22,232 nucleotides of DNA from a virus, in the IMG/VR virus record IMGVR_UViG_3300009790_000085, positions 1 to 22,232 of that record. One strand, 5' to 3'. The notes under the pieces are model-generated. The model worked only from the letters and a program-made list of their open reading frames with translations. It was not told the origin of the DNA and ran no database searches. The number at the start of each line of letters is the position of its first letter. Position 1 is the stretch's first letter. Of this stretch, positions 6,506 through 9,299 are shown piece after piece. Position numbers and translations under genes: made by a program.

Positions 6506-6705
6506 ACAGTTTATTAGAAAGTTTTATTGATGTTACAAGTGGATTAATTTTAGCAATTATTATTCAGCTAACAATTTTTCCATATTTTTTTAACTTACAT
6601 CCAAACATAATTGAAAGTTTGCACATAGCATTAATATTTACTGTTGTTTCAATTTTAAGATCATGGGGTTGGAGATCATTTTTTAAAAACAAAAAAATTT
6701 TATGA
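6502..6705 (+). CDS. Small membrane protein, DUF7220-like
   Basis: A 67-residue protein from ATG 6502 (MNSLLESFIDVTSG). An earlier in-frame TTG at 6472 lies inside the preceding gene and is not needed, because the ATG makes the ATGA overlap seen throughout this operon and has AAGGA about 10 bases upstream. Two membrane segments are evident (LILAIIIQLTIFPYFF and IALIFTVVSILRSW). The order E-S...G...Q...FP...FTVVSI-RS-W-RR/FF matches small phage inner-membrane proteins of the DUF7220 type, whose role is unknown. Confidence 0.7.
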   Translation: MNSLLESFIDVTSGLILAIIIQLTIFPYFFNLHPNIIESLHIALIFTVVSILRSWGWRSFFKNKKIL

Positions 6706-7211
6706 TAGAAGTTAAATTAGATTTATACGATATTATGGCAGCTTCACAAACTGGGTTGCTTAGGGTTTTTGAGTCATTAAGATTAAAACAAGATTGGGGT
6801 CATAACTATAAAGGTAGTGTTAATGACCAAATAGCAAAATCAATAAGTGGTGCTTGTGCAGAACTTGCAGTTTGTCGTTACTTAGATACTTCTTTTAACT
6901 TTCATGTAAATCATGGTGCTAATCCAGATATTATTTGGCATGATGTTCATTTACAAGTTAGATCCCAACTACCTAAAAAACATAATAGTTTAATAATAAG
7001 ACCTAAAGGCAGTAAAGCTGGGGAAATCTATGTATTAGTTATTGATAAAAGTCCGACTTACGAAATTCATGGCTTTGTTAATAGCAGTTATGTTTTAGGT
7101 ACAGAAAAATATTTAACAGACTTTGGTATTACTGACAGACCAAAAGTTCATTCACTAAGTTTAGATAAACTTACACCAATTAAATTTTTGAAAGATGGAG
7201 CATGGAATTAA
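6702..7211 (+). CDS. Degenerate PD-(D/E)XK-like nuclease-fold protein
   Basis: A 169-residue protein. Its centre follows a phage nuclease-fold pattern: GACAELAVCRYL with Glu54, then HGANPDIIWHDVHLQVRSQ with Asp76. In active relatives the last strand reads I-D-V-K; here it is LQVRS, with Gln/Arg where the catalytic acid and lysine would be. The fold is therefore likely, but cleavage activity is doubtful. Basic strands follow (SLIIRPKGSKAGEIYVLVID). The cytosine methyltransferase starts 10 bp before its stop, so the two are co-translated and may work together, perhaps in DNA recognition or as a relic restriction partner. No homologue was checked. Confidence 0.6.
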   Translation: MIEVKLDLYDIMAASQTGLLRVFESLRLKQDWGHNYKGSVNDQIAKSISGACAELAVCRYLDTSFNFHVNHGANPDIIWHDVHLQVRSQLPKKHNSLIIRPKGSKAGEIYVLVIDKSPTYEIHGFVNSSYVLGTEKYLTDFGITDRPKVHSLSLDKLTPIKFLKDGAWN

Positions 7212-8122
7212 GTGTACTTGATTTATTTAGTGGCATTGGTGGTTTTAGTGTTGGCTTGGAGTCTACTGGTAAATTTAAAACAACTGCATTTTGTGAAAAA
7301 GATAAATTCTGTCAAAAAGTTTTACAAAAACATTGGCAAGGCACAACAATATTTGAGGACATAAGGGATATAGATGGAACAAAAATTAAAGCAGATGTCA
7401 TTACTGGGGGATTCCCATGCCAACCATTTAGCACAGCAGGAAAAAGAAAAGGAACAGAAGATGACCGATACCTATTTCCAGAAATGCTTAGAGTCATTAA
7501 AGAGACTCAAGCAAGGTGGGTTGTTGGAGAGAATGTGCAAGGAATTGTTAATATGTCAGAGGGAAAAGTCTTGCAAGGAATACACAATGATTTGGAAACC
7601 ATCGGTTACGAAGTCCAAACTTTTATTATTCCAGCTAGTTCGCAAGGAGCATGGCACAAAAGAAACAGAGTTTGGATCGTTGCTGCCAACACCAACAGCA
7701 AGTTGCTTAGAGGGTGGAGAACAATCGAACAGAGTGGAGAGAAGCAAAACAGGAAAAGGGTTTATTTTAAGGAAAAAAAACAAACCGAACAACACTTATG
7801 GAGCAAGTCTCTCAGACACAATGATGTTTTTGGCAAAACAGAAATATCCAACTCCAACAACATCGGATGCAAAGGACATAGCTTACAATCCGATAACCTG
7901 CAAAAGGGAAATAACACAACAGAAAATGTCAATTCAAGCTTTAAAAAACAACAAACCTGGTGGGAAACTCAACAGCTTATTTGTGGAGTTCCTAATGGGA
8001 TTTCCTATGAATTGGACAAGGATAGAACAAATAGAGTCAAATCACTTGGAAACGCAATCGTACCACAAATCGCAACAGAAATCGGCAAAGCCATTATCAA
8101 GGCAGAAGAAGAAAATGTATAG
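7202..8122 (+). CDS. dcm: C5-cytosine DNA methyltransferase
   Basis: A 306-residue enzyme that methylates cytosine at C5 with S-adenosylmethionine. All main motifs are present: I DLFSGIGGFSVGL (7-19), IV GGFPCQPFSTAGKRKG with nucleophile Cys73, VI GENVQGI with Glu110, VIII GAWHKRNRVWIVA, and X SLGNAIVPQIA (281-291). The target-recognition part (~160-265) is short, polar and Asn/Lys-rich. Phages use such enzymes to evade host restriction. The gene overlaps the nuclease-fold gene by 10 bp and ends in ATGTATAG, overlapping the neighbouring frame. From 7374 on it shares its DNA with another long open frame, which may explain the unusual composition of its recognition region. Confidence 0.95.
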   Translation: MELSVLDLFSGIGGFSVGLESTGKFKTTAFCEKDKFCQKVLQKHWQGTTIFEDIRDIDGTKIKADVITGGFPCQPFSTAGKRKGTEDDRYLFPEMLRVIKETQARWVVGENVQGIVNMSEGKVLQGIHNDLETIGYEVQTFIIPASSQGAWHKRNRVWIVAANTNSKLLRGWRTIEQSGEKQNRKRVYFKEKKQTEQHLWSKSLRHNDVFGKTEISNSNNIGCKGHSLQSDNLQKGNNTTENVNSSFKKQQTWWETQQLICGVPNGISYELDKDRTNRVKSLGNAIVPQIATEIGKAIIKAEEENV

Positions 8123-8540
8123 AACTCCAACTGCAATGGACACTGGTAACGATAGTTTTGTTTATGCAGCTAAAATATTAAATGGCAAAATAAATAGAAA
8201 TTCAGACAGTAGGGTGCAAATTACTTTATCTACAGATGTTGCAATTAAATTTTTAAAAGATAATCCACATTTAATAAAAGAATATGACAAGCCATTTAAA
8301 ATTAGACCAAATTTACCAAACAAAATTGATTTTATAAATTATTTAAAATCGCAAATTAATATTAAGGAACTCACAGATAAAACCGATATTAAAAAAACTA
8401 CAATAGAACATTGGTTTAGAAAAGATAAATGCTTTGCTTACCCCACAGTTGAAAATTGGAACACAATAAAAAAATTATTTAATCAACTTAAATACGATCA
8501 TGAGATGACACATGAAGTTGAGGAAGATTGGAAAAGTTAG
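7374..8540 (+). CDS. Methyltransferase-associated 'PTPTA' protein overlapping dcm out of frame
   Basis: A 388-codon frame sharing 7374-8122 with the cytosine methyltransferase in another phase. It starts at ATG 7374 with AAGGG six bases upstream. Features in order: a Lys-rich N-terminus, WKPSVTKSKLLLFQL (74-88), LLPTPTAS (103-110), YPTPTTSDAK (158-167), LNSLFVEFLMGFPMNWT (199-215) and YRTPTAMD (249-256). I recall these strings from a recurrent phage family usually annotated beside DNA methyltransferases, of unknown function. The third PTPTA copy lies beyond the dcm stop, so the motif is not a by-product of dcm codons. The C-terminus (KELTDKTDIKKTTIEHWFRK, ~328-347) looks like a helix-turn-helix. 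A shorter product from ATG 8115 (141 residues), overlapping the dcm stop, is the conservative alternative. Confidence 0.65.
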   Translation: MEQKLKQMSLLGDSHANHLAQQEKEKEQKMTDTYFQKCLESLKRLKQGGLLERMCKELLICQREKSCKEYTMIWKPSVTKSKLLLFQLVRKEHGTKETEFGSLLPTPTASCLEGGEQSNRVERSKTGKGFILRKKNKPNNTYGASLSDTMMFLAKQKYPTPTTSDAKDIAYNPITCKREITQQKMSIQALKNNKPGGKLNSLFVEFLMGFPMNWTRIEQIESNHLETQSYHKSQQKSAKPLSRQKKKMYRTPTAMDTGNDSFVYAAKILNGKINRNSDSRVQITLSTDVAIKFLKDNPHLIKEYDKPFKIRPNLPNKIDFINYLKSQINIKELTDKTDIKKTTIEHWFRKDKCFAYPTVENWNTIKKLFNQLKYDHEMTHEVEEDWKS

Positions 8541-8542
8541 AT

Positions 8543-8698
8543 ATGTATGGTGATCCGGCAAAGAAGTGTTGCATGAAAGATTGTGACACACCGGCTGTGC
8601 TTACAGAAAACAATAAGCATTATTGCCCAGACCATTACTCATCTGAAATATTACAAATACCATTAGAAGAATTAGGTAAAGGTGGTGAGGATGATTGA
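8543..8698 (+). CDS. 51-residue Cys/His (zinc-ribbon-like) protein
   Basis: A short protein beginning MYGDPAKKCCMKDCDTPAV and ending KGGEDD. Cys9/Cys10, Cys14, then HYCPDHY with His26, Cys28 and His31 could bind one zinc ion. It starts two bases after the preceding stop and its TGA overlaps the start of the adenine methyltransferase (ATGATTGA), so it fills the only gap between the methyltransferase genes. No strong Shine-Dalgarno sequence is seen, which fits coupling to the upstream gene. Confidence 0.6.
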   Translation: MYGDPAKKCCMKDCDTPAVLTENNKHYCPDHYSSEILQIPLEELGKGGEDD

Positions 8699-9299
8699 GT
8701 TGCCTAATAAAAAATACAATATTATTTATGCCGATCCAGCTTGGTCGTACAATGGTAAGTTACCACAAAGAGCTAAGGTGCAGCACTATCCTGTAATGCC
8801 AATTGAGGATATTTGTTCAATACCAGTAAAAGATATTACAGCAGATGATAGCATTTTATTTATGTGGGCAACTTTCCCATTACTGCAAGAGGGTTTAGAT
8901 GTAATTAAGTCTTGGGGTTTTGAACTAAAAACTTGTGCTTTTGTATGGATTAAAACTAATAAAAGAACTGATGTTAAGCAATCATCATTTTTTCCAGTAG
9001 ACTCATTTGATAGTTTTTGGGGAATGGGTGGTTGGACAAGGAGTAACGCAGAAATTTGTTTATTAGGTACTAAAGGCAAACCCAAAAGATTAGATAAAGG
9101 CATACACCAGGTAATTTATGAGCCAATAAGAGAGCATAGCAGAAAGCCTGATTGCATTAGGGAAAAAATCGTACAGCTTTGTGGGGATTTACCAAGATTA
9201 GAAATGTTTAGCAGAACTGTTACACCAGGTTGGGATATTTGGGGTAATCAAACAGACAAATTTAAACCGACTGCCGAAAACAAGGAGTTAAGACTTTGA
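8691..9299 (+). CDS. MT-A70 family adenine-N6 DNA methyltransferase
   Basis: A 202-residue methyltransferase from ATG 8691 (MIELPNKKYNIIYADPAWSY); two in-frame GTG codons at 8682 and 8685 are less likely because they lie inside the preceding small gene. The catalytic DPPW motif reads Asp15-Pro-Ala-Trp18, a known variant. FMWATFPLLQEGLDVIKSWGF and the FVWIKTNK strand follow, then EICLLGTKGKPKR, REHSRKPD, and RLEMFSRTVTPGWDIWGNQ near the C-terminus, all standard for the family. It would methylate adenine in phage DNA, complementing the cytosine enzyme. Target sequence cannot be read from the protein. The next gene's TTG start overlaps its stop. Confidence 0.92.
   Translation: MIELPNKKYNIIYADPAWSYNGKLPQRAKVQHYPVMPIEDICSIPVKDITADDSILFMWATFPLLQEGLDVIKSWGFELKTCAFVWIKTNKRTDVKQSSFFPVDSFDSFWGMGGWTRSNAEICLLGTKGKPKRLDKGIHQVIYEPIREHSRKPDCIREKIVQLCGDLPRLEMFSRTVTPGWDIWGNQTDKFKPTAENKELRL

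Follow-up and report, generated by a model that had tools for sequence, protein, structure and literature searches.

In the window, the 22,232-base virus record analysed here, two open reading frames on the same DNA very probably encode one 5-methylcytosine DNA methyltransferase that is split into two subunits. The first frame, alpha (7202–8122), would supply the SAM-binding and catalytic core (motifs I–VIII) together with the closing helix (motif X). The second, B (or beta; 7374–8540), occupies the +1 frame relative to alpha and would be translated from its own ribosome-binding site inside alpha. It would contribute the target-recognition region as well as motif IX, and its C-terminal tail is a candidate second recognition-type module. 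The alpha segment that runs over the B recognition region would then be a passenger without a fold, whose frame stays open for the sole purpose of bringing alpha to motif X. From these sequence features we infer that alpha and B assemble physically, that they methylate DNA jointly and that B recognizes the DNA.

Two reading frames and the motifs they carry

All window features described here lie on the plus strand. Alpha is a C5-cytosine DNA methyltransferase ORF of 306 amino acids, with motifs I–VIII and X, and was identified with PF00145 (E 1.6e-55), TIGR00675 (E 5.6e-50) and Foldseek against M.HhaI and M.HaeIII (E about 1e-14). Its catalytic core carries motifs I–VIII (PCQ, ENV and a QxRxR-like motif) as expected of a PF00145 member, and P72 C73 Q74, E110 N111 V112 and H152 R154 R156 are invariant. 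The AlphaFold model of alpha has a confident catalytic domain that resembles M.HhaI and M.HaeIII, and this part shares its fold and motifs with both enzymes. Motif X (LGNAIVPQIA, 8045–8074) is in the alpha frame, with columns that are invariant in alignments A2 and A4, and only alpha is constrained here. Motif IX is absent from the alpha frame, so that alpha alone is incomplete as a single-chain enzyme if motif IX is expected in the same chain as VIII and X; the same site reads WWETQQLICGVPNGISYEL in the alpha frame and KLNSLFVEFLMGFPMNWT in the B frame. Moreover, alpha residues 167–249 (7700–7948), over the variable region of B, are predicted to be disordered (pLDDT around 25–30, below 50), so that no recognition domain is visible within alpha itself. 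In M.HhaI the recognition domain and motif IX belong to the same chain, whereas here they appear to lie in another frame and another protein.

An initial annotation had described a 388-codon frame open across about 750 bp of dcm, and the ORF at 7374–8540 (388 amino acids) indeed overlaps alpha (7202–8122) by 749 bp and extends 418 bp past its end. B, as delimited by its translation, conservation, the selection tests and a match to phrog_1008 ('DNA methyltransferase', E 8.7e-24), has its earliest start at ATG 7374. The AAGGG noted six bases before this ATG was located at 7363–7367; it is Shine-Dalgarno-like, with a weak match (AAGG only) that falls below that of most relatives. Starts at 7395 and 7461 are also frequent among relatives. 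A further ATG is present within the B frame at 8115. The strings WKPSVTKSKLLLFQL, LLPTPTAS, YPTPTTSDAK, LMGFPMNWT and YRTPTAMD do share one frame, and YRTPTAMD, from ATG 8115, extends beyond the dcm stop at 8120–8122, as the annotation had it.

The overlap can be divided into successive segments. A segment constrained in both frames (7442–7685) includes the alpha motifs before and at VIII, as well as B residues 24–104 with the invariant W74 and FQL. It is followed by a variable region led by B (7686–7960), which contains PTPTA repeats, is proposed to serve in target recognition and has its substitutions on alpha codon position 1, the wobble position of B. At 7968–8018 the B frame carries a putative motif IX (LNSLFVEFLMGFPMNWT), assigned from its invariant residues and from matches of the B profile to single-chain methyltransferases. 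The invariant residues of B cluster at W74 and at LNxxFVExLMGFPxxWT, and the latter resembles the C5-methyltransferase motif IX (RRLTPIECERLQGFPDNWT in single-chain relatives); within it, M208, W214 and T215 are invariant in alignments A1 and A3. Positions 210–256 of the B profile match motif IX of three single-chain methyltransferases (L265, L268 and L270).

Beyond the overlap, B ends in a C-terminal module (8112–8540; YRTPTAMD ... TIEHWFRKDKCFAYP ... WKS) that was identified with hhalign. This tail (residues 247–388, with TIEHWFRKDK) aligned to the VIII–IX segment of seven single-chain C5-methyltransferases (set A5) with an E value of 3.9e-13. The same hhalign comparison of B with single-chain methyltransferases aligned the tail module and not motif IX, and the motif IX link is based on the HMM matches (E about 8e-5) and on residue comparison. 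In other phage groups the module is placed within the variable region of B rather than at its C-terminal end. Because it occupies the position of the recognition domain in single-chain enzymes, the module may well take part in DNA recognition. Pfam and NCBIfam searches with B returned no family, and PDB sequence searches with B, both single and profile, gave nothing useful. Outside the tail, AlphaFold modeled B poorly (mean pLDDT 57); consequently, Foldseek with this model gave no usable match, and a recognition-domain fold for B is not established.

The pair has two neighbors on the same strand. A gene of unknown function (6702–7211, phrog_18407) shares 10 bases with the start of alpha, and an MT-A70-type methyltransferase gene (8682–9299; PF05063, E 1.7e-26; phrog_359, 'DNA methyltransferase') lies just downstream of B, so that the phage would have two kinds of putative DNA methylation genes.

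Selection on both frames

In 300 synonymous shuffles of dcm the B frame was never open (mean of 8.4 stops), and in 300 synonymous shuffles of B the dcm frame was likewise open in none (mean of 13.7 stops), which places the doubly open arrangement well beyond chance. Synonymous shuffling of 74 non-redundant loci had the same outcome, rare exceptions, if any, being confined to the reverse direction. Between pairs that are 70–98% identical, alpha shows about 0.28 wobble differences per codon upstream of the overlap, 0.05–0.10 within it and 0.32 at motif X. The 4-fold sites of alpha follow the same course, with differences of 0.387 in the alpha-only part, 0.005–0.087 in the overlap and 0.305 at motif X. 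In the segment 7442–7685 both frames are constrained (alpha 0.005–0.087 and B 0.025–0.109, against 0.387 in the alpha-only part), while at 7686–7960 the 4-fold differences reach 0.26–0.33 in B against 0.03–0.08 in alpha. The differences in this second region fall on the B wobble position, which indicates that B is the leading frame here and alpha its passenger. Downstream, starting at 8042, the constraint is on alpha only.

An explicit shadow null was built by resampling codon pairs from the alpha-only regions. B-frame identity in the conserved overlap was 0.78–0.91 against 0.60–0.65 under the null and equaled the null in both control regions, and no B-frame stop codons were observed where the null expects 3–11%. 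A Shine-Dalgarno match of at least 6 nt precedes the first B ATG in 54 of 73 loci, compared with 2.4% of alpha background positions. Wobble positions, 4-fold sites, the shadow null and the Shine-Dalgarno matches thus agree in indicating that B is a translated, genuine second gene. The overlapping-gene selection test that the initial annotation had put forward revealed constraint in both frames, unlike a shadow.

Distribution and natural variants

Scans of viral contigs yielded 80 loci with the B query and 41 with the alpha query, and 120 loci, including the window and three phage-record loci, have matches to both alpha and B. Some 30 of the loci with both ORFs (L084 onward) came from the alpha query and were not selected for B; a few alpha-query loci lie on contigs that the B scan had also returned. 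Wherever a viral locus had a single clean ORF in each frame, B was in the +1 frame of alpha (116 of 116). A genome scan, which was seeded on B motif IX and gives no frequency of dcm genes without B, added 80 bacterial and archaeal loci from Bacillota, Bacteroidota, Proteobacteria, Nitrospirota, Chloroflexota and others, again with B in the +1 frame of dcm (80 of 80). Phage records matching two different B queries numbered 52 and 68, and gp56 of Paenibacillus phage Shelly, annotated as 'g55 internal gene', has the same +1 position. In all, some 200 loci of phages and bacteria have the overlap arrangement. The initial description of the two genes as an ancient overlapping pair is supported by this conservation, which spans phages and many phyla of bacteria, along with constraint in both frames.

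Five loci with identical match scores (L144 and L146–L149), all with the alpha/B overlap, come from one Roseovarius sp. assembly (OX638333.1) and are perhaps multiple prophage copies. A contig of a Lokiarchaeota MAG (L125) has only a partial dcm beside a B end and tail of the window type, which are 66% identical; it is likely a viral insertion or binning contamination.

In three lineages alpha ends just after motif VIII and B extends through IX into X: a phage clade (L221, L223–225, L242 and L247), a further locus (L240) and a Brevibacillus borstelensis locus (L194). Motifs IX and X are both in the small subunit, as in M.AquI, in L194, L240, L223, L242 and L247. These variants indicate that the B elements belong to the same enzyme as the alpha elements.

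A probable split enzyme, its alternatives and its precedents

The reading of alpha and B as halves of one enzyme draws on three comparisons: single-chain enzymes carry the motif IX of B between VIII and X, they carry the tail module of B at the position of the recognition domain, and in three lineages alpha ends after VIII with B continuing through IX and X. The possibility that B is instead a shadow of dcm, open through composition and codon bias, with protein made only from ATG 8115, can practically be dismissed. An ATG does exist at 8115 and all relatives of the overlapped part sit on dcm genes, but this account was rejected on the synonymous shuffles, the 4-fold site constraint and the explicit shadow null, whose controls passed, and it is further contradicted by the internal Shine-Dalgarno sequence. 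Homologues of B free of a dcm overlap, which the initial annotation had asked to be counted, were not found, no stand-alone B being present among the viral and genome scan loci; the selection tests still indicate that B is translated. Since an overlap of every B relative with dcm is expected of a split enzyme, it is weak as a refutation of a real B. Very unlikely, too, is production of B mainly by programmed ribosomal frameshifting, which would give an alpha-B fusion (motifs I–VIII, then the recognition region and IX) beside normal alpha. The fixed frame relation between B and alpha would suit such a mechanism, and a shift would be sensible in the segment after motif VIII; however, conservation of the B frame begins well before motif VIII (7442–7685), and B has its own start and Shine-Dalgarno sequence.

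A better case, though still an improbable one, can be made for B as a real protein that acts as a separate partner or regulator (a reader, an inhibitor or a specificity switch) and not as one of two structural halves of the enzyme. Although B accompanies alpha in a conserved way, sequence searches assign it no fold, and part of its C-terminus lies outside the overlap. Against this stand the motif-IX-like sequence in B, which alpha lacks, the shift of motif X into the B reading frame in three lineages, and the location of both B elements between VIII and X in single-chain enzymes. The initial annotation had left B as a 'partner or control factor' of phage methylation; the absence of motif IX from alpha and the probable recognition region in B favor the partner, as one half of a split methyltransferase.

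In M.EcoHK31I, an alternative frame within the gene of the large subunit encodes the small subunit, and M.EaeI is grouped with M.EcoHK31I as a similar two-polypeptide enzyme. The alpha/B pair likewise has the gene for the small subunit inside that for the large one, in another frame. In M.EcoHK31I (YGGCCR), the large polypeptide contains motifs I–VIII and X and the small one contains IX, and the predicted recognition domain was assigned to the large subunit (PMC3404938). The window pair has the same division of motifs, with I–VIII and X in one polypeptide and IX apparently in the other. However, the recognition domain appears to be in B here, and its assignment to the large subunit of M.EcoHK31I counts against the placement proposed for B; B also differs by its extra C-terminal module outside the overlap. 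By motif layout and description, M.EcoHK31I, one laboratory enzyme from which the arrangement is known, is the closest precedent, and the window pair is an unusually widespread further case. M.AquI (CYCGRG), in which the division into subunits also cuts through the variable region (PMC3404938), is another natural alpha/beta C5-methyltransferase split after motif VIII. It is matched by L194, L240 and L223/L242/L247, with I–VIII in alpha and the recognition region, IX and X in B, whereas in the window motif X stays in alpha (8045–8074) and IX and X are not together in the small subunit. The phrog_1008 pairs with an 'internal gene' in Paenibacillus phages (Shelly gp55/gp56) have the same +1 position, but their B is about 33% identical, they belong to a different phage group and their annotations propose no mechanism.

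The literature found, with few subscription papers within reach, contained no paper on the overlap family beyond mentions of M.EcoHK31I and M.AquI. None of the papers found describes the breadth of the family, the tail module, the disordered alpha passenger or the M.AquI-like derivatives. It is rare for a same-strand overlap of about 700 bp to persist in phages and in many phyla of bacteria, and this one would be explicable as enzyme halves sharing DNA. A common class of 'cytosine methyltransferase' annotations would then be incomplete without a hidden partner, and when such genes are tested heterologously the outcome may hinge on whether the internal gene is kept. The chances are about even for a more comprehensive picture, in which the pair is among the most widely conserved same-strand overlaps of prokaryotes and phages, the recognition half of a split methyltransferase has moved to the other frame, each frame is partly a passenger, recognition modules shuttle between single-chain and split forms, and there have been repeated escapes to an M.AquI-like split.

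The coexistence of overlapping, M.AquI-like and single-chain forms allows the origin and loss of an overlapping gene pair to be tested. A simple origin, in which a single ancestral gene underwent two frameshifts that compensate each other, was weighed and is not established, because the conserved WW..CGVPNGIS of alpha and motif IX of B share bases in the window. In four loci (L112, 1645–3144; L226, 1716–3272; L187; L202) the alpha and B parts are frame-swapped or alpha is broken in two, and these irregularities are either real transitions or sequencing frameshifts. Finally, one locus (L255, 1996–3058) has an overlapping ORF in +1 that carries the tail module but whose N-terminus is unlike that of B (SSWKTWQRSLITDWTLFSESFPKQGTMQNG...), which suggests that the same overlap also occurs in a more distant family.
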